A DNA stretch of 41,979 nt from Salinivirgaceae bacterium. GTDB taxonomy: Bacteria; Bacteroidota; Bacteroidia; Bacteroidales; SZUA-534. Below the pieces are notes generated by a model. The model ran no database searches, was not told the origin of the DNA, and saw only the letters and a program-made list of their open reading frames with translations. Numbering within the stretch: the stretch's first letter is position 1; every line of letters starts with the position of its first letter. Below, one piece after another: positions 13,507 through 33,200 of the stretch. The position numbers were made by a program, and so were the translations under genes. The stretch is taken from NCBI GenBank assembly GCA_017617355.1, contig JAFZWI010000007.1, forward strand, positions 1-41,979. The letters run 5' to 3'.

Positions 13507-14079
13507 ATGAGACATTTTCCGACAATATTACTCGCGCTTACAGCAATTGCTTGCTCGTCAGGCAATTATTACCAGTCTCAAATTGCAGATTATGAATTGC
13601 AGGCGCACCATATAATAATTGACAGAATTGACTCTATCGCAAGCGAAACGCCTTTCACCGCCGCCGACAGCATAGCATTGTGTCAATCGGAGCTGGAACG
13701 CGCCAAAGCCGGCCTGATTGCCATCCAGCAAAGCAACATCGACACGCTGATTGTGAAGATTGCAAAAAGCAAGGACGACATGCAAAAGACTCAAAGCGAG
13801 GCAATGCGTAACATGATTCAGAAAGGCATCAAATCAATGGAAAACAAATGCGAGCTGTCACGGAAAATAATCGACTTGTACGAAAATCATCCCGAGCAAA
13901 CAAGTTTGAATAAGATTGTCAGCAAGATAGACGCATACAAGCAATACCCCGACTCGGTGCTTGCGCGCACAATAAAATGCACCTTCAGCGGCCGTCAGGG
14001 ACAGCTCCCGACTGAAAAATTCGCACGCCGCTACATAATAACCGACGGCAAAATCAGCGGCGAGATTACGGAACCTTGA
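13507..14079 (+). CDS. Predicted lipoprotein with helical domain, unknown function
   Basis: 190 residues. The signal MRHFPTILLALTAIAC gives a good lipobox (AIAC, Cys16). Residues 25-125 are strongly helical and charged (ELERAKAGLIAIQQSNIDTL and KIAKSKDDMQKTQSEAMRNM), suggestive of a coiled coil. The final 40 residues contain CTFSGRQGQLPTEKFARRYI. No family is recognised. The stop overlaps the 3' end of the convergent serpin gene by 14 bases. Confidence 0.68.
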   Translation: MRHFPTILLALTAIACSSGNYYQSQIADYELQAHHIIIDRIDSIASETPFTAADSIALCQSELERAKAGLIAIQQSNIDTLIVKIAKSKDDMQKTQSEAMRNMIQKGIKSMENKCELSRKIIDLYENHPEQTSLNKIVSKIDAYKQYPDSVLARTIKCTFSGRQGQLPTEKFARRYIITDGKISGEITEP

Positions 14080-15250
14080 CGTAGCGGCCTGCAAAAAGCA
14101 TCAGTTCGTTTTCCGAATCCCAAATAAAATATATGAACGGGTGGTCGGCAAAGAACCGCTTTAATTGTGGCATATGTGCTGATTTCAAGCCCATTATAAC
14201 AGCCGTGGCGGCTGCAGCCTCAGTCCCTTTCTCCTCCACTTCGATAACCGCCTTATGAAGCACCTGCGTAATCTTCAAATCGTTTTTCTTGGTCATTGCC
14301 GTAAAATCCGCATTATTGCCAAATGCCTCAACCACACCCATTTGCTGCAAAAGCGAGGTAAAATCGACATCAGTTTCCATTTTGAATTTCGGAATTGTAA
14401 CCGAAACCTGCTCCTCCTCCATTTTCGACATGGCATCTTTCAGAAAATCAACATTTATCGATGATTCAATGCTGTCAAAACATTGTGCCGCAGGCATCAT
14501 GAAAACCATTTGAAACCTGTCGGTTGAATACGGCAGGCTGATAATCTGATAATCAGCACATTCGAAGTATTTATAATGCTCCGTCTGCTTCATATAAGTT
14601 GTCTCGACGGCTTTGCCATCAATCTGTTTGAACTTTAGCGTCACATTGTTGCTGCTACGGAACTGACTCTGCCAGTTGCACTTAAAATAAATGGCATTGG
14701 TAAGCACCAGGCGGGTTGTGCAGCTGAGCGACTCGTCGCTGACAAGCTGTTTAATCATCCCGTTGGTCGACTGCGAAACCCATTTATTTATGGCTAAAAC
14801 TGCCTTTTTACGGTTTTTGTTTTTCACAAAATCGACATTCCGTACATCTGCTCCGAATTTGTTCCTGACAATGTCAACATAATCCGACCTCAAGTTGTAT
14901 TTCTGCTGAAGCCAGGCGGCGTTGACAAGCTTCAGCTTGTAATCGCCCTCATCGGCAAAGCTTGACATCAGACGCGCAATATTCTCATTGGCAGCCGATT
15001 GCGACTCATACCGACTCACCACTGCAGCCATCTCCTCAAGCGTTTTACCTTGCGCACCCGCCTCGGCCATTCGCATGGCCATATTGACGCTCAACGGCGA
15101 GAAGATAAAATTAGCGCCGCTTTTTACTGCCGCCACCTGCCGGTAAGCTGAGAGCGAAAAATCATTCATACTCTGCGACAACAAACTGTCAGTCTGTGCG
15201 TTAGCAGCACAAGCCGCACAAACGGCTATAATGGAAATCAATCTTTTCAT
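14066..15250 (-). CDS. Secreted serpin (serine/cysteine protease inhibitor)
   Basis: 394 residues with a signal peptide (MKRLISIIAVCAACAANAQ), so it acts outside the cytoplasm. The serpin fold is clear: ANFIFSPLSVNMAMRMAEAG, ATRLVLTNAIYFKCNWQSQF-like segment (reads TTRLVLTNAIYFKCNWQSQF), FQMVFMMPA, and the reactive-centre hinge EEKGTEAAAATAVIM with small residues at P12-P9, the signature of inhibitory serpins. Counting from the hinge Gly (P15) puts P1-P1' at Lys-Ser in GLKSAHM, suggesting trypsin-like targets, although the loop is about four residues longer than in antitrypsin. It starts inside the stop of the upstream peptidase (ATGA), so the two are co-expressed. Such serpins may protect the cell against host or microbial proteases. 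Confidence 0.93.
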   Translation of the reverse strand: MKRLISIIAVCAACAANAQTDSLLSQSMNDFSLSAYRQVAAVKSGANFIFSPLSVNMAMRMAEAGAQGKTLEEMAAVVSRYESQSAANENIARLMSSFADEGDYKLKLVNAAWLQQKYNLRSDYVDIVRNKFGADVRNVDFVKNKNRKKAVLAINKWVSQSTNGMIKQLVSDESLSCTTRLVLTNAIYFKCNWQSQFRSSNNVTLKFKQIDGKAVETTYMKQTEHYKYFECADYQIISLPYSTDRFQMVFMMPAAQCFDSIESSINVDFLKDAMSKMEEEQVSVTIPKFKMETDVDFTSLLQQMGVVEAFGNNADFTAMTKKNDLKITQVLHKAVIEVEEKGTEAAAATAVIMGLKSAHMPQLKRFFADHPFIYFIWDSENELMLFAGRYVKVP

Positions 15251-18011: not shown

Positions 18012-18019
18012 TACTTTTG
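18012..18019 (+). promoter_or_regulatory. -7 element of the CheR-SiaBC-ABCG operon
   Basis: TACTTTTG matches TAnnTTTG 56 bases before the cheR ATG. A good -33 TTG at 19-21 bases is not evident (a TTTG at 17998-18001 is too close), so the element may need an activator. It is the only clear promoter-like motif in front of the ten-gene block. Confidence 0.5.
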
Positions 18020-18075
18020 AAATTATAGGTCAACGCAAAAAAGATGTTGCTGTAAAGGATTAGAAAGAAAATTGT

Positions 18076-18918
18076 ATGGTTACAAACGAAGATGCAGCGA
18101 GGTTAATTACAGCCATCAAGACGTCGTCGACGTACGATTTCACCGACTACTCCGACAAGTCATTCTGTCGGCGAATCGAGAAAATCCTGCTCGACAACAA
18201 CATGGATTTAAACCAATTAATCCTGAAAATAAGCAAAGACAAGGCTTTCCTGGAGCAAACTGTAAAAGACATCACTGTAAATACAACCGAACTTTTCCGC
18301 AATCCGGAGATGTGGCAGACACTGCGCTACCACATTCTTCCAAAGCTAAGGAAAAACAAATCGATATTCATCTGGCACGCTGGCTGCTCAAGCGGACAGG
18401 AGATATACTCGATGCTCATCCTGCTTAATGAAATGGGATTGTTCGACCAGGCCAAAGTGTTCGCCACCGACATCAACACCGATATGCTTGAGGCAGCCAA
18501 AGCTGGCACCTATAAATATAGGTTCAACCTCGGCTATCTTGACAATTTCGACAAGGTTATCAAAGAGAATCCTTACAACTTCGAGGAGAAAATTGATGTG
18601 CCGTACGAGAAATATTTCGACATCGACAAGGTGAAAGACACCATACAGATGAAACCGTTCCTGCGCGAGAAGGCCGTTTTCCGCAAACACGACCTAGTGA
18701 AGGACGGCAACGTCTTCTACTCAAAATTCGACCTGATATTGTGCCGTAACGTGATTATCTATTTCAACAACAGGCTGCAGAGCCGTGTCATCGACATGTT
18801 CAACAACAGCTTGAGCCACGACGGCTACCTTATCTTAGGCTCGCATGAGAGCATTCTTGGCTCATCGGCCAACAATTTTGAGCGTTCAAAAAGTTTCTAC
18901 AAGAAAAAAACGATATAG
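18076..18918 (+). CDS. cheR: CheR-type protein-glutamate methyltransferase (apparently intact)
   Basis: 280 residues with the CheR N-terminal helical domain (DYSDKSFCRRIEKILLDNNM), DITVNTTELFRNPEMWQTLR (the usual 'T-x-FFR' segment), then the SAM-binding domain: IWHAGCSSGQEIYSM (99-113), FATDINTDMLEAAKAG with the ribose-binding Asp132, and LILCRNVIIYFN (220-231). These match catalytic CheR enzymes, which methylate glutamates on chemoreceptors using SAM. No receptor (MCP), CheA or CheW is nearby. It is the first gene of a tightly packed cluster; the next gene, a diverged copy, begins two bases after its stop. The substrate is unknown; the GAF/PAS membrane proteins in the same operon are the obvious candidates. 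Confidence 0.92.
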   Translation: MVTNEDAARLITAIKTSSTYDFTDYSDKSFCRRIEKILLDNNMDLNQLILKISKDKAFLEQTVKDITVNTTELFRNPEMWQTLRYHILPKLRKNKSIFIWHAGCSSGQEIYSMLILLNEMGLFDQAKVFATDINTDMLEAAKAGTYKYRFNLGYLDNFDKVIKENPYNFEEKIDVPYEKYFDIDKVKDTIQMKPFLREKAVFRKHDLVKDGNVFYSKFDLILCRNVIIYFNNRLQSRVIDMFNNSLSHDGYLILGSHESILGSSANNFERSKSFYKKKTI

Positions 18919-18920
18919 TT

Positions 18921-19748
18921 ATGGTAGATAATATAGGAATAGTAGATACAAGGAACATTATCAGTGCCATAGCTGAGAAATTTGGCATCGACATGTCCGA
19001 CTATGCCTCTACCATACTGCGTAGAAGGCTGGTTCACACAATAAACGCATACACTTGCCACTCGGCCGACGATTTCATCGACAAGGTGAAACGTGGCGCA
19101 ATCGACGTTGACGACTTCCTTTATGAAATGGCAGTTGAAACGACCGAGATTTTCCGCGACCCGTCGCTGTGGCGCGAGCTGCGCGACCGCTACCTGCCCG
19201 AAGTTTGCCGCACCCCCGACTGCCAGATTTGGATGCCAGGAATAACAACAGGCGACGAACTATACACACTGGAGATAGTGCTTGCAGAATCGGGATTGCA
19301 AAACAAGGCCAAAGTGGTTGCCGGATGCCCGTCGAACAAGCACATCGAAAACATCAAGAACGGCGGACTGTACGACCCGAAGAAAATCGAGGTTAGCGAG
19401 GCTAACTACACACGCTACGTGGGCAAGTCGCAGTTCAACTCGTACTACACCATGGTCGACAATCACGCCAAAATGAAGAACGAGCTGCTGGCAAACGCCA
19501 CAATATATCAGAAAGACATATTGAAAACCGAAGCCAACAAGCAATACCGGATGATTATCTACCGCAACACACTGCTGCAATTCAACATACCGCTCTACGA
19601 GAAGGTCATCCGCAAGCTGACCGAAAGCCTCGCCATTGGCGGATATCTGATTATCGGCAACATGGAGACGCTGGAATATTCAGAGACCGGTAAGAAGATG
19701 CAAGTTGTTAACGAGAATGAGAAAATTTATAAAAAACGAATAGACTGA
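18921..19748 (+). CDS. CheR-like protein with a degenerate SAM site
   Basis: 275 residues aligning end to end with the preceding CheR: same N-terminal domain (SDYASTILRRRLVHTINAYT) and AVETTEIFRDPSLWRELRD. The SAM-binding motif AGCSSG is PGITTG (107-111 region), the ribose-binding Asp of ATDIN is lost (AGCPSN, 134-139), and CRNVIIYFN reads YRNTLLQFN. The reading frame is intact and the C-terminal strand GGYLIIGNMETLEYS is retained. It likely arose by tandem duplication and now acts as a non-catalytic partner, receptor-binding adaptor or regulator. Its stop overlaps the next start by one base (TGATG), so it is translated with CheB. Activity loss is inferred, not shown. Confidence 0.85.
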   Translation: MVDNIGIVDTRNIISAIAEKFGIDMSDYASTILRRRLVHTINAYTCHSADDFIDKVKRGAIDVDDFLYEMAVETTEIFRDPSLWRELRDRYLPEVCRTPDCQIWMPGITTGDELYTLEIVLAESGLQNKAKVVAGCPSNKHIENIKNGGLYDPKKIEVSEANYTRYVGKSQFNSYYTMVDNHAKMKNELLANATIYQKDILKTEANKQYRMIIYRNTLLQFNIPLYEKVIRKLTESLAIGGYLIIGNMETLEYSETGKKMQVVNENEKIYKKRID

Positions 19749-20311
19749 TGAGCGATTACAAAGCCATAATGATAGGAGGTTCGGCGGGCAGCTTTCAGGT
19801 TGTTTCGCACATAATTGCCGCGCTGCCGGCAAATTATCCGCTGCCAATACTGATGTGTCTGCACCGGCTCAAACACATACGCTCAGGCTTTGTCGAGGCC
19901 CTGTCGATTAAATCGAAGCTGCCGATAATCGAGCCTCATGACAAGGAGCCGCTCAAACCGGGCCGCATCTATCTGGCTCCGGCCAACTATCACATGTACA
20001 TCGAGCTTGGCAACCGCTTTGCGCTGTCAACAGAAGATGTCATCAACCACTCGCGTCCGTCTATCGACCTGTCGTTCTTCTCCGCCTCGTACAATTTCAA
20101 GAAGAAACTTGTGGGCATCATCCTGAGCGGAGCCAACAAAGACGGCGCAATGGGACTTAAGAGTGTGACCGACAACGGCGGACTGACAATTGTCCAGGAC
20201 CCGAAAGAGTGCCAGGTGCCGACAATGACACAGGCATCGCTCAACGCAACAAAAGTGGATTATGTGTTCAGCACAAAACAGATTATAGATTTTTTACTTA
20301 AATTAGCCTAA
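19748..20311 (+). CDS. cheB: CheB-type methylesterase without receiver domain
   Basis: 187 residues comprising only the CheB catalytic domain. The Ser-His-Asp triad is present: Ser12 in MIGGSAGSF, His39 in MCLHRLKHIRSGF, and Asp132 in ILSGANKDGAMGL. The typical LTIVQDPKECQVPTMTQASL follows. CheB removes methyl esters from (or deamidates) chemoreceptor glutamates. Normal CheB carries an N-terminal receiver phosphorylated by CheA; here it starts directly at the catalytic domain, so regulation must come from elsewhere, consistent with the lack of CheA in the cluster. It follows two CheR genes and is translationally coupled to the second. Confidence 0.92.
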   Translation: MSDYKAIMIGGSAGSFQVVSHIIAALPANYPLPILMCLHRLKHIRSGFVEALSIKSKLPIIEPHDKEPLKPGRIYLAPANYHMYIELGNRFALSTEDVINHSRPSIDLSFFSASYNFKKKLVGIILSGANKDGAMGLKSVTDNGGLTIVQDPKECQVPTMTQASLNATKVDYVFSTKQIIDFLLKLA

Positions 20312-20314
20312 TCT

Positions 20315-21067
20315 ATGAACGAGTTGCTCAAATACAGAAAAGGGATTATAAGGCTGACCATTATATTAATATTGGTAGAGGTTGCCGCTGTCGGCCTTCT
20401 GCTTGCGGCCTCCCCAAGTTTCGAACGCGGATACATCTCGCTTATCCTGCTGATTGTCATTCTTGTACAGATACTGCTGACCGCACGGCTCGGAATGGCT
20501 GGCAACAAGACTGCCGTAATCTTGATACAAGAGGAACAGGAGCGCGCTATGGCCGCATCCGATGAGCAACAGATTGAGCATGCCGCACAAAGCGCTAACG
20601 ACATTGTCGAGACAAAATTCGACATCAACGACATCACCAAGCTGATAAAGAAAGCCGACAACTGGAAAGATTATGGCGACTCAATCCTATACTCACTGTC
20701 GAAACAGATAGACATTGCTGTGGGCATGGTTTACCATTACGCCAACGAGGAGTTCTACGCAGCCGCCACATTCGCCTACTACAACGACGAGGCGCCCCGA
20801 AACTTCAAGATTGGCGAAGGCATATCGGGACAGGTTGCCAAAGACAAAAAAGCCATGTTCCTGAACGACTTACCGAGCAAAAGTCTGATGATAGTTTCGG
20901 GTCTGGGACAGATTGAAGTGAACAATTTAGCAATTATTCCAATTTTAAAGGATGATAATGTACTTGGATTAATAGAAATAGCTACCTTTAAGCCCTTTGA
21001 TAATTGGTTTATAAACAAGATAGACGAAATTTCAAACGCTATAGGTGGCATGGCACCAACACTATAA
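20315..21067 (+). CDS. Two-TM membrane protein with cytoplasmic GAF domain
   Basis: 250 residues. Two transmembrane helices (about 11-33, LTIILILVEVAAVGLLLAAS, and 39-57, YISLILLIVILVQILLTAR) precede a Glu/Gln-rich helix (QEEQERAMAASDEQQIEHAA) and a GAF domain (about 112-245) containing IGEGISGQVAKDKKAMFLND and LAIIPILKDDNVLGLIEIAT. GAF domains bind small ligands or mediate dimerisation. The helix segment AASDEQ matches the first half of the methylation-site consensus of chemoreceptors ([ASTG]2-x2-[EQ]2), so this could be the CheR/CheB substrate; inference only. The GAF domain is closely similar to that of the next gene product, suggesting paired sensors. It starts three bases after cheB. Confidence 0.82.
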   Translation: MNELLKYRKGIIRLTIILILVEVAAVGLLLAASPSFERGYISLILLIVILVQILLTARLGMAGNKTAVILIQEEQERAMAASDEQQIEHAAQSANDIVETKFDINDITKLIKKADNWKDYGDSILYSLSKQIDIAVGMVYHYANEEFYAAATFAYYNDEAPRNFKIGEGISGQVAKDKKAMFLNDLPSKSLMIVSGLGQIEVNNLAIIPILKDDNVLGLIEIATFKPFDNWFINKIDEISNAIGGMAPTL

Positions 21068-21079
21068 TACGGAAGCGAA

Positions 21080-23707
21080 ATGGATACATTTATTGAAAAA
21101 ATAAAGAAATTGTTCGTTTACAAGGTCGGCGAGAAAATCAACTACACTCCCGCCCTTATAAGCGTTGGTGTCGTTCTGCTCATCTTATCGTGGGTGCTGG
21201 GATTCATGAAAGCCGACGCCACAGTATCGCTGAGCGGACTGGCCGAATTGCACAAAAACGCTCCGTCGTACTATCTGATTGACCTTCTGCCGATAATACT
21301 TGGCATTTTGGGCTACGCCTTCACCAGCTCGCATCAGGAGACAATACAACAGCTCGAAGACCAGATTACACAGAAAGACAGCGTCATAAACAAAAACGCG
21401 CACTTTGCAAAGAAAATCGGTGAGGGTGACTTCTCGGCAAACGACGAGGAGATTGACGACAACGACATTCTGGGACACTCGCTGAAAAAGATGCGTGAGA
21501 ACCTTGCAATGACCAACGAAAAAGAAAAGGAACTCAACTGGATAGCCAAAGGAAAGGATAACATCTCGAACATCCTCCGTTTGCAGAACGACCTTGGCAA
21601 TCTGTCGTACCTGACACTTGTTGAGCTGATTAAATACATTGATGTTATCCAAGGCGCGTTCTACATCTACAACGAGACCGACAACACTTTGGAGAACACA
21701 GCCACTTACGCCTACAACCGCCGCAAATATCTCGATACAAAATTCCAGATTGGCGAAGGTCTTGTTGGTCAGTGCGCCTACGAAATGGATGTGATATTCC
21801 GCCGCGAGATACCGGAGGATTTCATCACCATTACCAGCGGCATATTGGGTGACCAAAAACCGACATCGTTGCTGCTTGTTCCACTCATCACCGATGAGAA
21901 GCTGCAAGGCGTACTTGAATTCGCATCGCTGAAAGACGATATCAATGAGCTGAAAATCAGATTTATCAAAGAACTTAGCGACATTATAGCCCGCACAATC
22001 TTCAACCTGAAAGTCAACACACGGACAGAGAAACTGCTGAAAGACGCTCAGGAGATGACCGAGGAGCTTCAGGAGAATGAAGAGCAACTGCGCCAGAACG
22101 CCGAGGAGATGCGCGCCACACACGAGGAACTGGAGAAAACCAACTCGAACCTGCAGACACAAATCCGCGAGGTTGAGAACGCGCAGAAACGTCAGCACGC
22201 ATTGTTGGAGAATGCATCCGAAATCATCTCGATTTATGACGAAGAGATGAAACTGAAATACATAAGTCCGTCGGTAACAAACATCTACGGTTACACCATA
22301 CAGGAGATGATTGAAGGTAAAGACCTTGACCGACTGACCGCCAAAGACGCCAAAGAATATACCGAAACATTCGGCAAGCTGGCCGAGAAAGCCAATTCGT
22401 CGGCAACCATACAGTACACCTACATGCGTAAGGACGGCCAGAAAATCTACATCGAATCGACTGGCCGCAACCTACTCGATGACCCTGCAATCAACGGTAT
22501 CATCATCAACTCGCGCGATATTACCGAACGCAAACGCGCCGAGAAAGAGGAGCGCATGAAGAGTAAGATGCAGTCGCTGTCGGAGAATTCACTCGATATG
22601 ATTCTGCGTATCGGCACCAACGGACAATTCTTCTACGCCAACCCAATGGTGAAGACGTTCACCGAGAACGAACCGAGTGAGCTGATAAACAAAAACTTAA
22701 GCGAAGCCAAATTCAACGAGACAATCAAGAATTTCTTTGTTGAAGCTGTCAAAACCGTCAACTCGACAAAAGAGAAACACGACGCCGAGGTTACATTCCC
22801 GACGCACTTTGGCGACCGAATAATGCAGGTGAACGCCATTCCTGAATTCAGCGACGACGGCAAAGAACTGGAAACCATTCTGTTTGTCGCTCACGACATC
22901 ACCGAGCAGAAAATGGTGGAAATGGAGATTCAGGAGAAGAACAAGGCTATTACCGAGAGTATCAACTATGCAAAACGCATACAGACAGCCATACTTCCGA
23001 ATACGAAATTTGTGCAGGAATTCCTGCCCAACTCGTTCATCTTCTACCGTCCGAAGGATGTGGTCAGCGGTGACTTCCCGTGGTTCTTCAAAAAAGGCGA
23101 CGACATCTTCATTGCTGCCGTCGATTGCACCGGCCACGGCGTTCCTGGTGCGTTGCTGTCGTTCATCGGCTACTTCACGCTGAACAATGTTGTCGACCAC
23201 TACGACAACCTGAATGCCGGCGAGGTTCTTGACAAGCTGCACGAAGGCGTGCGCACCACACTGAAACAGGACCGCATCGACACCGATGCCCGCGACGGTA
23301 TGGACATTGCATTGTGCAAAATAAACTTGCAGAAAAATATACTTGAATTTGCAGGTGCTCACAGACCTCTTTATTTACTGAGAGGCAATGAGTTAACTCA
23401 ATACAAGGGCAGTCACAAGGCCATTGGTGGCATACCATTAGGCAAAAAACCTGAAGCGGATTTTGAAAATCATTTAATAAATTTGCAAGCTAAAGACAGA
23501 GTATTCTTCTTCTCTGACGGCCTGCCAGACCAGGTTAGCGGCGAGACGGGCAGAAAATATCAGGCGAGCAGAATACGCGACTTGCTTGTTGAGCACTATG
23601 ACGTAGAGATTTTCGATTATGAGAACATAATCTACGAAGACTTTATGGCATATAAAGGTGATTACAAGCAAGTTGACGACATACTATTAATTGGAATTGA
23701 ATTTTAA
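21080..23707 (+). CDS. Membrane sensor phosphatase: 2 TM - GAF - PAS - PAS - PP2C (SpoIIE/SiaA type)
   Basis: 875 residues. Two TM helices (about 25-45 and 66-86) are followed by a GAF domain (about 165-312: FQIGEGLVGQCAYEMDVIF), a long coiled coil (about 315-378: EELQENEEQLRQNAEEMRAT), two PAS domains (about 378-490 with YISPSVTNIYGYTIQEMIEG; about 495-615 with FFYANPMVKTFTENEPSEL), and a C-terminal PP2C phosphatase (about 635-875). The phosphatase metal Asp residues are seen in VVSGDFPWFF, AAVDCTGHGVPGALLS, RDGMDIALC and VFFFSDGLPDQ. By position beside SiaB/SiaC-type genes it would dephosphorylate the SiaC-like protein, as SiaA does in Pseudomonas. GDFPW in place of the more usual GDFYW is a small oddity. 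Confidence 0.93.
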   Translation: MDTFIEKIKKLFVYKVGEKINYTPALISVGVVLLILSWVLGFMKADATVSLSGLAELHKNAPSYYLIDLLPIILGILGYAFTSSHQETIQQLEDQITQKDSVINKNAHFAKKIGEGDFSANDEEIDDNDILGHSLKKMRENLAMTNEKEKELNWIAKGKDNISNILRLQNDLGNLSYLTLVELIKYIDVIQGAFYIYNETDNTLENTATYAYNRRKYLDTKFQIGEGLVGQCAYEMDVIFRREIPEDFITITSGILGDQKPTSLLLVPLITDEKLQGVLEFASLKDDINELKIRFIKELSDIIARTIFNLKVNTRTEKLLKDAQEMTEELQENEEQLRQNAEEMRATHEELEKTNSNLQTQIREVENAQKRQHALLENASEIISIYDEEMKLKYISPSVTNIYGYTIQEMIEGKDLDRLTAKDAKEYTETFGKLAEKANSSATIQYTYMRKDGQKIYIESTGRNLLDDPAINGIIINSRDITERKRAEKEERMKSKMQSLSENSLDMILRIGTNGQFFYANPMVKTFTENEPSELINKNLSEAKFNETIKNFFVEAVKTVNSTKEKHDAEVTFPTHFGDRIMQVNAIPEFSDDGKELETILFVAHDITEQKMVEMEIQEKNKAITESINYAKRIQTAILPNTKFVQEFLPNSFIFYRPKDVVSGDFPWFFKKGDDIFIAAVDCTGHGVPGALLSFIGYFTLNNVVDHYDNLNAGEVLDKLHEGVRTTLKQDRIDTDARDGMDIALCKINLQKNILEFAGAHRPLYLLRGNELTQYKGSHKAIGGIPLGKKPEADFENHLINLQAKDRVFFFSDGLPDQVSGETGRKYQASRIRDLLVEHYDVEIFDYENIIYEDFMAYKGDYKQVDDILLIGIEF

Positions 23708-23727
23708 CTAAAAAAAGATATACAGCT

Positions 23728-24303
23728 ATGGATGGAAATACCTTTTTAGAATTTGTCTATAGTTTTAACGATTCGATGGAAAGTAATGATGTGAAACTCG
23801 TTTACAAAGGCGAGATAACGCATCAGGTTACGAAAGCTTTCACCTCGCTTACCGAGACCAACATGATGGTCGACGAAGAGCCTAACTCGGTGCAGAAGAA
23901 GGTTTTCCATGTGATTGTGGAGTTCCTTCAGAACATAAGCAAGCATGCTGACCACTTACCGGAAGAGGCTGAAAAAGAGGAAGGAAGCGGGGTATTTCTG
24001 CTATGCCGCAACGACAGCAACTACATTATAACAACCGGAAACGTGCTGCAAAAAAGCAAAGAGCCTGTTATCAGCGAAATATTAGACCGCATCAACGTGC
24101 TGGACAAAGACGGGCTGAAGGAGTTGTACAAACAGCAAATAAAAGAAGGTAAGCTGTCGGATAAGGGCGGAGCCGGACTGGGATTCATTGATATTGCCAA
24201 GAAGACTGGTAATCCGCTGAATTACAAATTTATACCTATCGCCGATGATTATTCATTCTTTATGATATCATCAACTATTTCAAGAACTCAAAATTTCGAA
24301 TAA
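23728..24303 (+). CDS. siaB: SiaB-family protein kinase (DUF6272)
   Basis: 191 residues of the GHKL-like SiaB family. The N-box helix (FHVIVEFLQNISKHADHL, Glu65 and Asn69) and the Gly-rich lid segment DKGGAGLGFIDIAKKTGNPL (145-164) are clear; the end SFFMISSTI fits the family. In Pseudomonas SiaB phosphorylates a Thr on SiaC, opposed by the PP2C phosphatase SiaA. Here the gene lies between a PP2C phosphatase and a SiaC-like gene, with 20-base and 18-base gaps, an arrangement that keeps phosphatase, kinase and substrate together. The biochemistry is inferred from the family. Confidence 0.88.
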   Translation: MDGNTFLEFVYSFNDSMESNDVKLVYKGEITHQVTKAFTSLTETNMMVDEEPNSVQKKVFHVIVEFLQNISKHADHLPEEAEKEEGSGVFLLCRNDSNYIITTGNVLQKSKEPVISEILDRINVLDKDGLKELYKQQIKEGKLSDKGGAGLGFIDIAKKTGNPLNYKFIPIADDYSFFMISSTISRTQNFE

Positions 24304-24321
24304 ACATAATTCTTATTTACT

Positions 24322-24705
24322 ATGGAGGTTATTAAAATTGTTGGAACAGACGACACCCCGAGTGTAACTTTAGATGTTGCAAATGAGATATTTGAAATAT
24401 CAGGGCGCTCATTGCCTGAAGATGTTGCAGTATTCTATGAACCAATTCTCGACTGGATTGACCGCTACTCGGAAGAAGCAACCGGAAAAACCATATTCAA
24501 TTTCAAACTGGTTTACTTCAACACCGCCTCGTCGAAAATGATTCTCGACATCCTTCTGAAACTGGAAGAGATGCACGAAGCAGGAAAAGATGTGCTTATC
24601 AGATGGCACTATCCTGAAGACGACGAAGATATGGAAGAGGCAGGCGAAGAATATGCTGACATTGTTGATGTTCCGTTCGAACAGATAAGCTATTCGCTGG
24701 ATTAA
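24322..24705 (+). CDS. siaC: SiaC-family regulatory phosphoprotein (DUF1987)
   Basis: 127 residues, acidic. The family core FNFKLVYFNTASSKMILDIL is at 59-78, and Thr68 in NTASSK falls at the same residue number as the phosphosite Thr68 described for Pseudomonas SiaC. DTPSVTLDVANEIFEISGRS (11-30) and PILDWIDRYSEE (41-52) are also typical. In Pseudomonas, unphosphorylated SiaC activates the diguanylate cyclase SiaD; no GGDEF gene occurs here. The next gene, a TerB-like/ABCG transporter, is the natural candidate for the regulated partner. The tail (DDEDMEEAGEEYADIVDVPF) is strongly acidic. Confidence 0.9.
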   Translation: MEVIKIVGTDDTPSVTLDVANEIFEISGRSLPEDVAVFYEPILDWIDRYSEEATGKTIFNFKLVYFNTASSKMILDILLKLEEMHEAGKDVLIRWHYPEDDEDMEEAGEEYADIVDVPFEQISYSLD

Positions 24706-24736
24706 TCAGAAAATCAGCAAGAAAACACTACTGTAG

Positions 24737-27700
24737 ATGAGTGAAGAGATTCTAAAAGCCTTAATGCAACTGTTTGCGATTATCGCAAAACAGGACGGGG
24801 GCGTAAAAGATAGCGAGATTGATTTTGTTGAGAACTTCCTGACTTCGCAACTTAGTTCCGATTTCGTGGAGGAGTATCTCGCATTGTTTTACAAACATGT
24901 CGGCATTACAGACCGCAATTCTCTGCATGAACATTCGGACGAGGAAGTCAAACTGACTTCGGTAAAGGACTCAGTTAAGATTCTTGGCATCTGCAAGAAA
25001 ATCAACAAGACACTGACCCAACAGCAGAAAGTTGTCGTTTTGGTGCGCTTGTTTGAGTTGGTGGCAGCCGACAAGCAGTTCACCGACCAGCGTATGGCCA
25101 TTATCAACACTGCGGCTGAGGTGTTCAACATATCGGCCGAAGAGTTCAAGAGCACCGAGACATTCGTTGTCAAAGAGACAGTTGAGGAACTTGACAATCC
25201 GAGCGTCCTCATCATTAACGACCACGAAACCAAACTCGAACAAGCCAAGCACATTCAGATTGAAGACCTTGACAAAGAGCTCATCATACTACAGATAAAG
25301 AGTGTTGACCTTTACTTTACGAAGTATCTCGGCTCGCACGAACTGGTGCTGAACGGACTGCCAATAAAGAGCAACAAAATCTATTTGTTCGCCAATGGTA
25401 GCGCCATTCGTTTCCCCAAAGGCAAGCCGGTGTACTATAGCGATGTTGTGTCGAAATACCTGTCGGACATTACATCGGCAAAAATCACATACAACGTCAA
25501 CGACCTTGAGTTCAAATTCAAAAACGGAAGCATCGGACTTCGCAACATCAACATGTCGGAAGAACAAGGCAAGTTGGTGGGCATTATGGGAGCCAGCGGC
25601 GCCGGCAAGACAACATTGCTGAACGTTCTGACAGGCAACGAGTGCCCGTCGCAAGGCGAAGTGCTGATAAACGGCATCAACCTTCACACCGAGAAAGACA
25701 AGATGGAAGGTGTGATTGGCTATATTCCGCAAGACGACCTTTTGATAGAGGAACTGACTGTGTATCAAAACCTTTACTTCAACGCCAAGTTATGTTTCAA
25801 GAACATGACCGACGAGGAGATAAAGGAACGCTGCGAGAAGACTCTCGCAAACCTTGGCCTGCTCGACCGTAAAGATTTGAAAGTAGGCTCACCGCTGCAC
25901 AAAACAATCAGTGGCGGTCAGCGCAAACGACTTAACATTGCGCTGGAACTTATCCGCGAACCGCCAATCCTGTTTGTCGATGAGCCGACATCGGGTTTGT
26001 CGTCGCGCGACTCAGAAAACGTGATGGACTTGCTCCGCGAGCTTGCAATGAAGGGCAAACTCGTATTTGTGGTTATCCACCAGCCGTCGTCGGAAATCTA
26101 CAAGATGTTCGATAAGATGGTAATTCTGGATACCGGTGGATACCTTATATATTATGGTAACCCGGTTGACGCCGTTTCGTACTTCAAGAAGATTGACGGA
26201 CAGCTGAACGCCGACATGGGCGAATGCCCCACTTGCGGTAACGTCAATCCGGAGTTGATATTCAACATTATCGACGCGCAGGTTGTCGATGAGTTTGGTA
26301 AATACACCAACAAGCGTAAGATAACCCCGCCCGAATGGGAGAAGAAACGCGAGTTGAGCATCATAACTCAGGTAAGCCCCGAGTTTTTGGATAAATACGC
26401 TGAGGAACAGACAAAAATCGCCAAAAGCGAAGATGACCCGCAAGAGAAGGCGCGCGAGCTTGAAAAGCTGGAAGTGAAATTCCACAAGAAATACAAGGAG
26501 TGCATTGACAAGACCAAAAGTCCCGACCTGCATGAGACTCCTCCAAAATCGTTGGACATCCCGGGCTGGTTCCAACAGGCGGCCATATATTTCCGCCGCG
26601 ATTTCCTTGCCAAGATAAGCAACACACAATATATAGTGTTGAACTTACTTGAGGCGCCAGTGTTAGGTTTAATTCTCTCATTCCTAATTAGATACATTGC
26701 CGACCCCAACTCAAAAGTCTACATATTCCGTGAGAATGCAAATATTCCAATTTACATTTTCATGAGTTTGATTGTGGCAATGTTCCTAGGCTTGATGTGC
26801 AGCGGCGAAGAAATTTTCAAAGACCAGAAGATTCTGAAGCGCGAGAAGTTCCTCAACTTGAGCCGCTCAACATATTTGGTTTCTAAAATTACCATTCTGT
26901 TCATACTGTCAGCCATACAGTCGCTTTTGTTTGTGGCTGTAGCCAATTTGATATTGGGTGTCAAGGGATTGTGGTTTGAATACTGGTGGGCGATGTTCAC
27001 CATTGCCACTTTCTCGAATATGGTCGGCTTGAACCTGTCATCAGCATTTAACTCGGCGGTAACCATTTACATTATGATTCCGTTGGTCATGATTCCGCAG
27101 ATGGCATTGGGTGGTGCCATGTTCAGCTTCGACAAACTGAACCGCGCCATAGGCAGTATTGAAGGTGTTCCGCCTGTCTGCGAATTCATAGCGACACGCT
27201 GGGTTTACGAAGGCTTGGTTGTGCGCCAGTTCAAAGACAACAAATTTGAGAAAAACTTCTACAATATTGAACAAGCCATTTACGAGGCCGATTTCAAAAA
27301 CGTTTACTACCTGCCCGAGCTGAAAGAACGCGTTGACTATTGTTCGTCGGTAGATATCAAAGACTTGCAGACAAAAGAAGACATTGAAGACTACAAATGG
27401 AAAATGGCTCTGCTGAAGAACGAGCTCTCGAAAGAGATGAAGCGCGTTCCGGGTATCGAGTTCAACTATCTTGACGAGCTTACGGTTGACAAATTCACGC
27501 CTAACATCGGCATGGAGACCAAAGAGTACATAAGCAAACTCGACAGATACTATACCGAGTTATCGACCAACGCAAGCGCTCGTAAAGAGGCTATTATCAA
27601 CTATTGGGACAGCAAGAGCGACGGCTCGTACCAACGTTTCCGCCAGGAGTATCACAACGAGGCCACAACTGACATTGTCCGCAACATCTACGAGAAAAAC

Positions 27701-27940
27701 AAGATAAAATCGTACAAGGACCACCTGATTCAACAGGTTGACCCGATATTTGAGAAACCATGGGTTAGAAACGTCTTCGACTACCGCGCGCAATTCTTTG
27801 CCCCGACGAAGCATTTCCTCGGCCACACATTCGACACTTTCTGGTTCAATATGTGGGTGGTATGGCTGATGACAGCGTTCTGCTACGTAGCACTATATTA
27901 CGATTGGTTGAAGCGTTTTATGGATTTATTCCAGAAATAA
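24737..27940 (+). CDS. TerB-like/ABCG-type ABC transporter fusion with large extracytoplasmic loop
   Basis: 1067 residues. Residues 1-135 resemble a TerB-like helical domain (MQLFAIIAKQDGGVKDSEID; VRLFELVAADKQFTDQRMA). A beta-rich segment (about 185-240) follows. The ATPase (about 250-470) has Walker A GASGAGKTT, signature ISGGQRKRLNIALEL, Walker B ILFVDEPTSGL and H-loop VVIHQPSSEIYKMF; it is most like the ABCG/White group. A CPTCG motif and a charged linker (about 495-615) precede ABC2-type membrane helices (from about 633). An unusually long loop (about 860-1030) separates the fifth-to-last part from the final helix near 1036-1055. FHA-ABCG fusions such as Mycobacterium Rv1747 show that this transporter class can carry regulatory N-terminal domains. 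Export substrate unknown. Confidence 0.9.
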   Translation: MSEEILKALMQLFAIIAKQDGGVKDSEIDFVENFLTSQLSSDFVEEYLALFYKHVGITDRNSLHEHSDEEVKLTSVKDSVKILGICKKINKTLTQQQKVVVLVRLFELVAADKQFTDQRMAIINTAAEVFNISAEEFKSTETFVVKETVEELDNPSVLIINDHETKLEQAKHIQIEDLDKELIILQIKSVDLYFTKYLGSHELVLNGLPIKSNKIYLFANGSAIRFPKGKPVYYSDVVSKYLSDITSAKITYNVNDLEFKFKNGSIGLRNINMSEEQGKLVGIMGASGAGKTTLLNVLTGNECPSQGEVLINGINLHTEKDKMEGVIGYIPQDDLLIEELTVYQNLYFNAKLCFKNMTDEEIKERCEKTLANLGLLDRKDLKVGSPLHKTISGGQRKRLNIALELIREPPILFVDEPTSGLSSRDSENVMDLLRELAMKGKLVFVVIHQPSSEIYKMFDKMVILDTGGYLIYYGNPVDAVSYFKKIDGQLNADMGECPTCGNVNPELIFNIIDAQVVDEFGKYTNKRKITPPEWEKKRELSIITQVSPEFLDKYAEEQTKIAKSEDDPQEKARELEKLEVKFHKKYKECIDKTKSPDLHETPPKSLDIPGWFQQAAIYFRRDFLAKISNTQYIVLNLLEAPVLGLILSFLIRYIADPNSKVYIFRENANIPIYIFMSLIVAMFLGLMCSGEEIFKDQKILKREKFLNLSRSTYLVSKITILFILSAIQSLLFVAVANLILGVKGLWFEYWWAMFTIATFSNMVGLNLSSAFNSAVTIYIMIPLVMIPQMALGGAMFSFDKLNRAIGSIEGVPPVCEFIATRWVYEGLVVRQFKDNKFEKNFYNIEQAIYEADFKNVYYLPELKERVDYCSSVDIKDLQTKEDIEDYKWKMALLKNELSKEMKRVPGIEFNYLDELTVDKFTPNIGMETKEYISKLDRYYTELSTNASARKEAIINYWDSKSDGSYQRFRQEYHNEATTDIVRNIYEKNKIKSYKDHLIQQVDPIFEKPWVRNVFDYRAQFFAPTKHFLGHTFDTFWFNMWVVWLMTAFCYVALYYDWLKRFMDLFQK

Positions 27941-28003
27941 CACAAAACATATAATTGAATAGCAAAAAAGATTATTTTTATCGCACAAAAAAAACGTTTG
28001 TTC

Positions 28004-28921
28004 ATGAATAGAAAAATCACAACTCTGTTGTCAATCTTAATAGCAGGAAGCTCTCTATTAATGATTGATTGTAGCGGAAACGGAAGCAAAAAAACTGACG
28101 ATATGTCAATTCCTGATTCGATTTTTGAAAACAAGCCATTGCTTATTTCAAAAGAGGCAATGAACGATATCATCGACAACATATCGTCGCCGGTGGAAAT
28201 GGCCGCACTGATAAAATCGGCCGGCGCACCGTTCAACCAGAAGTATTTAGCGCAGACAAACAATGTTGACAACCTCAACACCAACTTCAAACAGGCTTTG
28301 AACCTTGGCGTTTACGGTTGCGACCTTGGTTATTTGAACATGTACGAGAAAACAGGCTCAATTATGGTGAGCATGACAGCCATAAAGAAACTTGCCGACG
28401 AGCTGCGCATAGGCCAGTTCTTCGATTTCAACACCATTAAACGTCTGGCTACAAACAATGAGAACCTTGACTCGCTGATGTACATATCGGTAGCAAGTTT
28501 CAACAACATGGACGAATTCCTGCGCGAAAGCAACCGCAGCAACATCAGCGCACTACTTGTAACAGGCATGTGGATTGAAGGTATGTATCTTGCCTGCCAA
28601 GTGGTTAAAGAGAATCCGGAGCGCACCGTTATTGAGCGTATCGGTGACTCAAAAATGGTGCTTAACAGCTTGATTCTTATCTTGAGAAACTACAAGAGTG
28701 ACCCCGCTTTCGCAAATCTTGTAAAAGAAATTGAGAAGATTAAGAAAGAGTACGAGGCTGTAACGGTAAGATACGAAGCCGGTGAGCCTGAGGCGAAAGA
28801 AGTTGACGGCATGCTTATCATCATTCAGAATGACAAACAGATAGTAGATATTTCTGACGAGACTTTGGCTAACATTACCGTTGCCATTGAAAATGCCCGT
28901 AACATGATAATCAATTTGTAG
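28004..28921 (+). CDS. Exported (probable lipo-) protein of the CheR-Sia-ABCG cluster, unknown function
   Basis: 305 residues from MNRKITTLLSILIAGSSLL with a Cys at about 23 (LLMIDCSGNGSKK); Asp before the Cys is atypical, so lipidation is uncertain. The mature protein is mostly helical, with SSPVEMAALIKSAGAPFNQKYL-type and NLGVYGCDLGYLNMYEKTG segments, VTGMWIEGMYLACQVV and a helical C-terminus. No family name recalled. An alternative ATG lies two codons upstream (27998). It follows the transporter by 63 bases and is separated from the next exported protein by one base, which argues that both work with the transporter at the envelope. Confidence 0.78.
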   Translation: MNRKITTLLSILIAGSSLLMIDCSGNGSKKTDDMSIPDSIFENKPLLISKEAMNDIIDNISSPVEMAALIKSAGAPFNQKYLAQTNNVDNLNTNFKQALNLGVYGCDLGYLNMYEKTGSIMVSMTAIKKLADELRIGQFFDFNTIKRLATNNENLDSLMYISVASFNNMDEFLRESNRSNISALLVTGMWIEGMYLACQVVKENPERTVIERIGDSKMVLNSLILILRNYKSDPAFANLVKEIEKIKKEYEAVTVRYEAGEPEAKEVDGMLIIIQNDKQIVDISDETLANITVAIENARNMIINL

Positions 28922-28922
28922 T

Positions 28923-29351
28923 ATGAAGAAATTAGTCAGCATAATATCTGTAATACTTTTGTCGCTTAGCTTCTACCACGCATCAGCGCAATCTGACGAC
29001 TTGGTGAACGTATGCGCCTTAGGTATCGGCAATGCCACCTATCTGAAGGATTTCAAGGTGAAACTTCCGGCAAGCGTGGCAAACGCCCCGTCGACAAAAT
29101 TCAATGTAATTTTGAACAAAGGCACATTGTACAAATTCACTGTCTGCAACGCCGAAGGTTATGAGGGAAAGGCTGTTATAAAGCTTACTGAAGGCCCAAA
29201 CGTGCTGGGTACCAACCTTAAACCCGACGGCTCGTTCCAGGATGCTGTAGGTTTCCAATGCAACAAAACCGGAATGTATATTCTGACCTGCGGTTTTAAA
29301 GGAGGCAAAGAAGGGGCCGCAGTAGTGATTATGTCGTATATGAATAAATAA
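28923..29351 (+). CDS. Small secreted protein, last gene of the cluster
   Basis: 142 residues. A signal peptide (MKKLVSIISVILLSLSFYHA, cleaved near ASAQ) leads a mature beta-rich domain of about 118 residues (KFNVILNKGTLYKFTVCNAE, GKAVIKLTEGPNVLGTNL, MYILTCGFKGGKEGAAVVIM) that looks like a small jelly-roll or immunoglobulin-like fold. No known family. It starts one base after the preceding stop and is followed by a terminator, so it closes the operon. Confidence 0.78.
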   Translation: MKKLVSIISVILLSLSFYHASAQSDDLVNVCALGIGNATYLKDFKVKLPASVANAPSTKFNVILNKGTLYKFTVCNAEGYEGKAVIKLTEGPNVLGTNLKPDGSFQDAVGFQCNKTGMYILTCGFKGGKEGAAVVIMSYMNK

Positions 29352-29372
29352 TTAAAATTTTTCATAGTGATG

Positions 29373-29407
29373 AGAGGATGTTTTTCGAAAGGAAGGCATC
29401 CTTTTTT
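29373..29407 (+). terminator. Terminator at the end of the cluster
   Basis: AGGATG (29375-29380) pairs with CATCCT (29397-29402), a 16-base internal part with TTTCGAAA, then a T6 run. It lies 20 bases past the last stop of the operon. Confidence 0.75.
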
Positions 29408-30281: not shown

Positions 30282-33200
30282 ATGAAAACCAAACATTTAC
30301 TTAAAAGGACATGCCTAAGCTTGGCGCTTTTGATTGGAGCTGGAACGGCTTGGGGAGCGGTGGGAACAAAAACCGAAGGTTTTGAAACAGCTACTGCAGG
30401 AAGTGCTTATCAAGGAACAGTAACTGTTACTACTGACAAAAGTGACTGTGGAATTGGTTGGGAAATTTATTATGGATGCGTTAGCACAAGTAGCAAGATT
30501 AGTGGGATTAATTCCGCTGCTATTAGGTTATATAAAAGTGACAAAGACAATGATTATGGTTACATAAAAACAACCACAGCAATAGATGGGTTGTCAAAAG
30601 TAACCTTCAATGCAAAATCTGCAACTTCAGGTGACGCAAAAATAAAAGTCCACATATTGTATTCAGCAAACAATACAGTTTGGGACACAATAAAAAGTGA
30701 TACGACATTCGCATCGTCAAGCAAAAGCTATTCTTTTAATATTCCAAATGGTGGCAAATACTTTCAGATAGCCATTTCAAAAAATTCAATAAAGCCTTCA
30801 AAAAACATACAATTAACTATTGATGATGTTGTATTCACATACACATACACAGACGAAACCGACCCTGAATTAAGCATTGCTTCTGAACCTTTAGCTATAA
30901 AAGGTAAAAGCATAGATTTTTCAGTTACGGCAACTGAAGATTGCAAAGTTTATTATAAAGCTGTTGCACATGAAACGGAAGTCCCAAGTGCTGATGATGT
31001 TATTGCGACAAACACATATACACAATGTGCCGAAAATGAAGCAACCACTGTGACTGTAAGTGGATTAACAAAAGCCACAACTTACAATATTTATTTTGTA
31101 GCAGTTGATGATGCTGGCAACTACAAAGAAGTTCCATACTCAAAAACAAATGTTACAACACTTTCTACATGGTCCGAGGTAACAACTGTTTCGTCAAACA
31201 AACTATACAGTGGCGAATCGGCCACCATTGAATGGACAACTGAGGATATTGCTGCCGATGCTAATGTTAAGATTGAATTGTATAATGGCACAGAATGGAG
31301 CACACTTGTTGCCTCAACAGCCAACGATGGCTCGGAAAACATTACAATAGATGCCAACACTGCATATGGAACAAAATACAAACTGCGTGTTTCTCTTGTA
31401 AGCGATGAAACCATATCTGCTGAAAGTGAGGAATTTAGCATTATCCCGAGCATTACCATAAATGAACTGCTAACTAACATTGGTAGCAATGGTGAATCGA
31501 ACTACAAAAGCAAAGTTGTAAGGGTTAAAGGATTGGTAACGGGCATAAAAAACAATTCATACCGTAACATTATATTACAAAATGGGAATTCTGCTATTTA
31601 CGTTCAATATTGCGACAAATACAATGACACACACGTTTCAATAGGCGATAGTGTTTATGTCGAAGGCAAAGTTTTGTATTACAATAATGGTAAATTCTTA
31701 GCTATTGGAACGAACAGCAGCCATGCTCAAGTAACAATTATCAATCATGACAATAACTTACCAGAACCAACAATTGTATCCTTAGCAGATGTTCACTCAA
31801 CCGCATTTTTAGGCAAAATTGTTAAATTACAAGGTGTTACTTATAATGGAACAAAAAAATATTTACAAAACAGCACTGATACAATTGGATTTTATAGCAA
31901 TATGTGCCAAAATAATGTAACACTATTATCTAATAGGAAATACGATATTATTGGTGCAATAGGATATTATAGTGATTATCAAATTTGGCCCAGGTCATTT
32001 GACACCGCCGCAGTAAGCTACACTGGCAAAGACAGAACCTACACAATTGACGACATCTACTTATATAGCAATGACACAACATTGTCTGCATTGACAATAG
32101 GAGGAAAATCTGTAAATATGGATTTCCAAAAGAAAGCAGATACTGTATTTTTTGTCAACTTCAACAACTGCAAAGGCATTGCAGCCACTGCTAACCACGC
32201 CAAAGCAAGAATACTTACTGTTAAGGTGAACGGCAATGCAGTCGCTACAGCCGACTTGGCAACCAAAACTCTTAAGGAAAACGACATTGTTTCAATAACC
32301 GTAGAAGCTGAGGACGGCACTGTAGGAACCCGCGACATAAGGATATTGAAAGATTTGCGTTCGTTTAGTTTTGCCGAATTGCAAAACAGCACATTCAACA
32401 CCAACAACACAATCAGTCTCAGCTGGACACAACAAAAAGTGGACAATTTCGACTTGTATTTTACAGCCGGTGAAATCAGCGTGAAACTTAATGACAATGT
32501 GCTTACCTCAACAAATACAACATTAAACTACACTGTATCCAATGGTATTTACGGGACAGGTTACATAAAAGCCGTGGCCACTGCCGACAACGAGGCACTT
32601 GACAGTCTTGCCGTAACAATTAATGACACTCAAGCTCCAGCGGCTTTGAAACTCGCCCCAGCAAATGCAGCGACAAATGTTGCGACAAATGTCAATCTTA
32701 TTATCAGCTTTGACGAGGCCGTTAAAGTAGCCGAAGAAGCAAAAATGAAAGCCAACACTGTTGAAGCCAAGATTGTTGTCATAAACGACACCGCTATAAA
32801 GGCATACTTCGAGAAGTTGGATTATGCAACTGAATACACCGTAACACTTCCGGCTGGCTCTGTTACCGATGCCGCAGGCAACACTCCGACACTGAACTGG
32901 AAGTTCACAACCAGACCACAACCTGTTCCGGAATTGTTCTTCAGCGAGTATTGCTCTGGTTCTGGACAAAATAAATACTACGAGATTTACAATCCGAAAG
33001 ATGAAGATGTTGATTTAAGCGAATACTTAATAATGATAGAAAAAGATGGTAAGGGAAAATGGGAAAAAGGCTTATTGAATCTACAAGGTATTATACTATC
33101 AGAAAATGTATATATAGTGGCTATTAAAGATAACCGAACTGATTCATTGATAAAAGCAAATGCAGATATATTGACTAGCAACACCACAAGCTTCAGCGGC

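Follow-up and report, generated by a model that had tools for sequence, protein, structure and literature searches.

We analysed a contig of a Salinivirgaceae bacterium (JAFZWI010000007.1 of assembly GCA_017617355.1; 41,979 nucleotides, the whole of which is referred to here as the window), which is contig C134 of its own assembly, G000 (2.56 Mb, 82% complete). On its forward strand, between positions 18076 and 29351, ten open reading frames (ORFs) follow one another in the order R1, R2, B, G, A, K, C, T, X and Y. On balance we lean towards the view that these genes encode one envelope-signalling pathway, in which the chemotaxis enzymes CheR and CheB tune a switch made of a PP2C phosphatase, a SiaB-type kinase and the phosphoprotein SiaC, and in which this switch controls a TerB-ABCG exporter. 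A broader proposal, more tentative and in our judgement possible rather than probable, is that Bacteroidia possess a signalling architecture in which CheR and CheB methylate GAF-PAS sensors controlling PP2C/SiaB/SiaC instead of CheA, also where methyl-accepting chemotaxis proteins (MCPs) and CheW are lacking, which would give adaptation and gate an ABCG-type exporter through the binding of a partner. The methylation and its target are inferred, as are the direction in which the switch works, the contact between SiaC and T, and the substrate. The original prediction, which had read the ten genes as a sensory pathway of this kind, is partly supported overall.

The proposed pathway would borrow the adaptation enzymes of chemotaxis and not its kinase. 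Membrane sensors, A in the window and also a further protein, S, in relatives, would take in the signal; R1 would methylate glutamates in the coil between their GAF and PAS domains, with the degenerate R2 perhaps acting as a scaffold, and CheB would strip the methyl groups so that the sensor adapts. The state of the sensor would set the PP2C activity of A, which would dephosphorylate SiaC (C) and oppose the kinase K, and unphosphorylated SiaC would bind and switch the exporter T, working together with the lipoprotein X and the exported protein Y.

The co-directional ORFs and the families first assigned to them agree with the domain profiles. The intergenic gaps measure, in order, 2, -1, 3, 12, 20, 18, 31, 57 and 1 bases, that is, a range of -1 to 57 and not the up to 63 bases claimed earlier. 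From 191 GTDB loci whose SiaC is related to that of the window, the best 80, which are hence close SiaC relatives, were scored with profiles of the ten operon proteins to assess how far this row is conserved; depending on the protein, the profile alignments comprise 69 to 80 of these 80 loci, truncated copies being excluded. All ten genes occur in the same order in 63/80 loci, one of which (L056) carries an additional T fragment upstream, and in 15 of the 17 incomplete loci the missing genes fall past contig ends. Two loci, L091 and L093, have A, K and C with other genes in place of G and CheB; L091 is also without T, X and Y, and L093 stops too early to tell. In the flanks, compared over the 0-5 kb available per locus, six window neighbours have homologues in no more than 1 of the 70 loci that remain when the ten nearest are set aside; among the 63 complete loci, the most frequent flanking family is found in 30. 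Because the ten genes are complete and in order in 63/80 loci while the flanking genes turn over, we regard them as one conserved unit; the scatter among relatives that would have spoken against a single system was not seen. No further gene is conserved inside the operon of the 80 loci besides the ten and S. The ten nearest loci have a SiaC 98-100% identical to that of the window, are mostly named Salinivirgaceae, and several come from ruminant stomachs. A cultured species, Perlabentimonas gracilis, is also among the carriers (L065). Three records with a Bacteroidales operon (L054, L055 and L056) are labelled Chlorobiota and Kosmotogales, and these labels or bins may be wrong.

More distant versions of the operon differ in their CheR and CheB content. 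In f128, which belongs to another order of the same class, L145 and L146 read CheR-CheB-G-A-K-C-T-X-Y, and in G440 the same nine genes are spread over two overlapping loci (L144 and L153). This nine-gene version has one CheR only, with its S-adenosylmethionine (SAM) binding motif intact, and a longer A with a HAMP domain ahead of GAF-PAS-PAS-PP2C. In family f8 (L184-L186), R1, S, G and A are present, and CheB and R2 are absent. In f29, in turn, CheB and R2 are present; directly ahead of the operon, at L191:1690-3275 and L192:17653-19269, stand CheB genes of 362 and 373 amino acids, long enough to include a receiver, together with genes that look CheD-like by eye, so that two methylation systems adjoin there.

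The two CheR-type proteins of the window are clearly distinct. R1 (18076-18918, +; 141 bits with the CheR profile) has the SAM-binding motif H-A/P/S-GCS-x-G-x-E (HAGCSSGQE in the window) and D132 in 70/70 sequences, residues which we take to bind SAM, while R2 (18921-19748, +; 72 bits) has the motif and the aspartate equivalent to D132 in 0/70, and retains the other CheR residues (E72, R75, R224 and N225) in 69 or 70 of 70. Since motif and aspartate are lost in 70/70, R2 is, judged from its sequence, a conserved CheR that is probably inactive. B (19748-20311, +) matches the CheB catalytic domain with 162 bits and has no receiver, and its S12, H39 and D132, presumably the catalytic triad, are conserved in 71/71 sequences. 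Both the receiver-less CheB and the degenerate second CheR had been predicted correctly. A weak CheR match was also found elsewhere in the genome, within a 1286-residue ORF (G000:C97:72908-73102).

An indication that this CheB serves something other than chemoreceptors comes from the gene content of its carriers. MCP, CheW-type and GGDEF domains were searched in 14 genomes. In six of them (G000, G229, G018, G343, G440 and G480) the MCP signalling domain had no match, and neither had the CheW-type domain shared by CheW, CheA and CheV, the Hpt and kinase parts of CheA not being included in the search. GGDEF likewise had no match in these six, among them G000 (82% complete) and G229 and G018 (99% complete each). 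The absence of GGDEF, CheW and MCP claimed earlier thus extends from the window to the own assembly, within that completeness, and for CheA it holds through the CheW-like domain only. The other 8/14 genomes have MCP and CheW, and GGDEF is present in 2 of these 8. Each of the six genomes has exactly one CheB, located at the operon coordinates, and five of the six are 99-100% complete. As the operon CheB is the sole CheB and no MCP was matched, it has no MCP to act on in these genomes.

A candidate target lies in the sensor A (21080-23707, +), a SiaA-like sensor phosphatase with two transmembrane (TM)-like stretches followed by GAF, a coil, PAS, PAS and SpoIIE PP2C; the GAF, two PAS and PP2C domains are all matched by profiles. 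Its GAF-PAS coil has a mean conservation of 0.80, compared with 0.67-0.78 for the folded domains, and contains the sequence EEMRAT (22103-22120, +; residues 342-347, the second glutamate being E343), which fits the MCP methylation consensus and would be a methylation site. In the consensus of E. coli Tsr, according to the part of PMC1079850 consulted, the second glutamate is usually the methylated one. With the strict motif defined as EExxA[ST], a match at the aligned coil position was found in 68/78 A proteins, in 3/3 A proteins of f128 and in 32/33 S proteins, compared with 8-10% of shuffled sequences that match anywhere. Among the fetched ORFs of at least 300 residues, the coil form of the motif occurs in 108, which are 73 A and 35 S proteins. 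The GAF protein G (20315-21067, +), which like A has two TM-like stretches, is without the methylation-type motif in the window and has it in 1/73 sequences.

The protein S, which is encoded between R1 and R2 in 33/80 loci (29/63 complete ones), extends this pattern. The six S proteins scanned have GAF and PAS domains in 6/6, a HAMP domain in 3/6 (two over the cut-off) and a Cache-like domain in 2/6, below the cut-off, and no output domain (kinase, GGDEF, MCP or PP2C) was found in them at E values up to 0.001. The presence of this output-less GAF-PAS sensor inside the operons of relatives, like the loss of the SAM residues of R2 throughout the alignment, is new with respect to the original prediction. 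The window operon is without S; in the own assembly a homologue of S is encoded on contig C118 (L121:11269-13257), scores 519 bits with the S profile and 239 with that of A, and carries EELQAT. It adjoins a YfiR-like gene, and another SiaC-SiaB pair is found a few kb away, so that this pair, the YfiR-like gene (DUF4154) and the relocated S are gathered within about 8 kb (L121:5243-13257); it is possible that this region is a second half of the pathway.

An alternative is that CheR and CheB modify no sensor of the operon, being a remnant or having an unrelated target, and that the coil is a generic signalling helix. We consider this improbable, since the operon CheB is precisely the one retained in the six genomes where neither MCP nor CheW was matched, and since the motif of S, present in 32/33 loci and in 2/2 of f29, is gone in 3/3 of f8, where the operon lacks CheB. 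In f8 the strict motif is absent from 3/3 A proteins as well, that of G223 having the near miss EEMQST. Several observations nevertheless favour this alternative and weigh against methylation of the sensors. Some A proteins are motif-less though CheB is present: both of those of f29 (2/2), and that of the L052/G018 lineage, which has CheR and CheB. The R1 of f8 keeps its SAM motif despite the loss of the operon CheB and of the sensor motif, a CheB is present elsewhere in two of the three genomes of f8, and f8 is a single family, so its losses perhaps represent one event. In one f8 locus (L184, G125:C1), moreover, both S and T are broken into two ORFs, and K is unmatched at its place, which may reflect assembly errors or operon decay. 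A sequence close to the motif, EEMRST, occurs in the A of L093, whose locus has no CheB. GAF/PAS sensors commonly have Glu-rich coils, and the histidine-kinase control, in which the motif was found in 0/6, is small. A related case is the A of G228, with the near miss EEMRVT, in a genome where no CheB was found (80% complete, contig cut). The control with PP2C paralogues showed the pattern in 1/25 loci, in another context, and is weak because only about 1,500 bases on each side were covered; L156 of this control is the motif-less A of G018. Taken together, the claim that methylation tunes the sensors has gained from the single CheB without MCP or CheW and from the conserved MCP-type motif, and the biochemical step itself is suggested by the sequences.

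In the core of the switch, K (23728-24303, +) matches the SiaB family (DUF6272) profile NF038262 with 162.5 bits, which exceeds the subfamily cut-off of 85, and stays below the narrower equivalog NF038264 (83 bits, cut-off 225); its conserved residues are presumably the ATP site. C (24322-24705, +) matches PF09345 with 141 bits, over the Pfam cut-off of 24.5, and the narrower equivalog NF038265 with 90 bits, below 150. Across the SiaC alignment Y65 and N67 are conserved in 81/81 sequences and T68 in 80/81. The T68 of the window (codon 24523-24525) corresponds in the alignment to the T68 of Pseudomonas aeruginosa SiaC, with an E value of 1e-18 to the chain of that structure. For P. aeruginosa, the consulted part of PMC8457831 states that phosphorylation of SiaC T68 by SiaB blocks the binding of SiaD. 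The best NCBIfam match of A is SiaA (NF038263; 171 bits for a cut-off of 700), and it covers the PP2C part only. K and C therefore belong to the SiaB and SiaC families, and the operon is not SiaABCD, because no SiaD was found.

The proposed output is T (24737-27940, +), in which a TerB domain, a domain at residues 151-262, an ABC ATPase (PF00005), a CPxCG motif (C497 and C500) and an ABC-2 membrane domain (PF01061) are joined in one chain, with a long stretch ahead of the last TM-like segment. T scores 261 bits against TIGR00955, under its cut-off of 736. The TerB domain is conserved, and the domain at residues 151-262 might receive SiaC. X (27998-28921, +) is lipoprotein-like by eye and Y (28923-29351, +) is exported by eye, each with one N-terminal hydrophobic stretch. 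X belongs to no known family, its Cys25 is invariant in 18 sequences, and its predicted structure is mostly helical (predicted local distance difference test, pLDDT, 77), with no credible match in the PDB and no clear fold. Y also belongs to no family; its model is a jelly roll (pLDDT 88) that resembles the PliG lysozyme inhibitor and subtilase C-terminal and GOLD domains (Foldseek E from 2e-4). Of 395 genomes sampled from the phylum, with the own genome among them, 7 have a match to X, which is strong in five.

The link between SiaC and this module is visible at the level of genomes. Among 295 genomes of the order, SiaC was found in 122 and X in 117: 111 have both, 6 X only, 11 SiaC only and 167 neither, with a Fisher value of 9e-60 that ignores kinship. 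In at least 32 genomes SiaC and X share a strand and are separated by 3.1-3.6 kb, a distance that roughly matches the length of T; in at least 20 they occupy opposite strands with a separation of 3.6-4.4 kb, both counts being lower bounds from 107 X places and 77 SiaC places among the matches listed. In the opposite-strand arrangement (L115 of the own assembly and L143 of G339), SiaC faces a row of T, a small exported protein and X, Che genes are absent, and the small exported protein of G339 has no match to the Y profile. The exporter as output, as first proposed, is in this respect strengthened by the co-occurrence and by the two arrangements, and the contact between SiaC and T is the step that we infer from them. 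Other facts weigh against this contact: the counts are uncorrected for kinship, T-X-Y stands without an adjacent SiaC in f112 (L188 and L189), as does T-X in L147, and residues 151-262 of T have no Pfam match at E values up to 5 and no credible sequence match in the PDB. Besides the copy in the operon, the own genome has two more X-Y-T modules with weak Y matches (L115:5205-9593 on C156, which faces a SiaC gene, and L139:6234-10651 on C139) and another copy of X that has a small exported protein after it and no T (L141:9782-11139, G000:C97).

The occurrence of T and X without SiaC beside them, and the at least five X copies of the own assembly, which suggest that the module may serve several pathways, could also be read in the reverse direction. 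T-X-Y would then be an input that, much as flux-sensing ABC transporters do, responds to a compound of the envelope or to a lipid and sets the SiaABC switch, with the output elsewhere. This reading appears unlikely to us, as A and S already have sensory domains, only the ten genes and S are conserved within the operon, and the SiaC of Pseudomonas acts on a downstream partner (PMC8457831, in the part consulted).

It is equally unlikely, in our estimation, that the targets of SiaC are encoded elsewhere, for instance as the hybrid histidine kinase beside a SiaB-SiaC pair, and that T-X-Y is simply co-transcribed. One of the eight SiaC matches of the own assembly is indeed followed by a PAS-histidine kinase-receiver protein (L116); on the other side stand the strong co-occurrence of SiaC and X and the two arrangements of SiaC and T, uncorrected for kinship as they are. 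With regard to the size of the repertoire, SpoIIE-type PP2C has 16 matches in the own assembly and up to 19 in a relative, beside the 8 SiaC, so that the genome holds a large PP2C/SiaC network. An exporter gated by SiaC remains our preferred reading of the operon.

Compared with known systems, the operon shares with SiaABCD of P. aeruginosa (PMC8457831, as far as consulted) the joint presence of a PP2C sensor, a SiaB kinase and SiaC, with N67 and T68 of SiaC conserved. It differs from SiaABCD in that no SiaD was found and GGDEF had no match in the assembly, in its GAF/PAS sensor, and in the added CheR/CheB and ABCG-type exporter. With Che pathways, including those of alternative function described in the consulted part of PMC3447774, it has in common CheR, CheB and a methylation consensus in the coil of a membrane sensor. 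It is not a Che pathway, because no MCP or CheW-type domain was found in six carriers; in addition, its CheB is without a receiver and its sensor ends in a PP2C phosphatase. CheB-CheR-PAS fusion sensor kinases tie CheR and CheB to PAS sensors and not to MCPs. These fusions are one polypeptide, whereas here the enzymes are separate and the output is a PP2C phosphatase.

A third comparison is with Rv1747, Rv2623 and PknF of Mycobacterium tuberculosis, where a fused-domain ABC exporter is under a threonine-dependent partner (PMC5549992 and PMC3908365, both in part). Rv1747 has FHA domains, whereas T has TerB and the domain at residues 151-262, with no FHA match at E values up to 5, and the consulted parts of these two papers describe no CheR/CheB or PP2C-SiaB-SiaC with it. 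By analogy, the operon may work like SiaABC in its core, like chemotaxis in its adaptation and like Rv1747/Rv2623 in having a phospho-controlled exporter partner. In the open-licence literature of PubMed Central (PMC) no published description of this gene set was found, in agreement with the earlier statement that no named system has it, and PMC9239204, in its consulted part, mentions SiaABCD solely as a Pseudomonas pathway. All the parts are known modules, and it is their combination for which this literature held no description.

If CheR and CheB do act on the PP2C sensors, the methylation module would be transferable from one signalling output to another, unrelated one. MCP-CheA pathways are where adaptation of the senses through methylated receptors is known, and genomes in which a single CheB occurs without an MCP or CheW-type domain allow this transferability to be tested directly. 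SiaC, of which many Bacteroidales have several copies, would gain a concrete new kind of partner, here where no GGDEF protein was found, and the two unnamed exported families, X and Y, would gain a role.

The signals at the two ends of the operon were also evaluated. An exact TAnnTTTG element (TACTTTTG, 18012-18019, +), which we take to be the -7 type consensus of Bacteroidota, starts 64 bases before R1. The element is not in excess across the window (28 found and 33 expected), and no TTTG (-33) was found 17-21 bases before it. Of 67 relatives, 31 have an exact TAnnTTTG in the 150 bases ahead of their first gene, compared with 38/392 stretches before internal genes. The promoter-like element proposed earlier is therefore exact and commoner before R1 in relatives, and a promoter role, read from sequence, is moderately supported. 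Downstream, the terminator-like site first noted (29372-29405, +) combines a stem of 15 pairs with a run of T, although such sites in the whole scan are not above shuffles (12 vs 13.0).

Two neighbours of the operon are worth recording. Upstream, positions 14066-15250 of the window encode an exported serpin-like protein (by eye), which stands beside the operon in 8/10 of the nearest loci. Downstream, positions 30282-34883 encode an exported protein of 1533 amino acids, whose C-terminal end resembles, by eye, a type IX secretion sorting domain.

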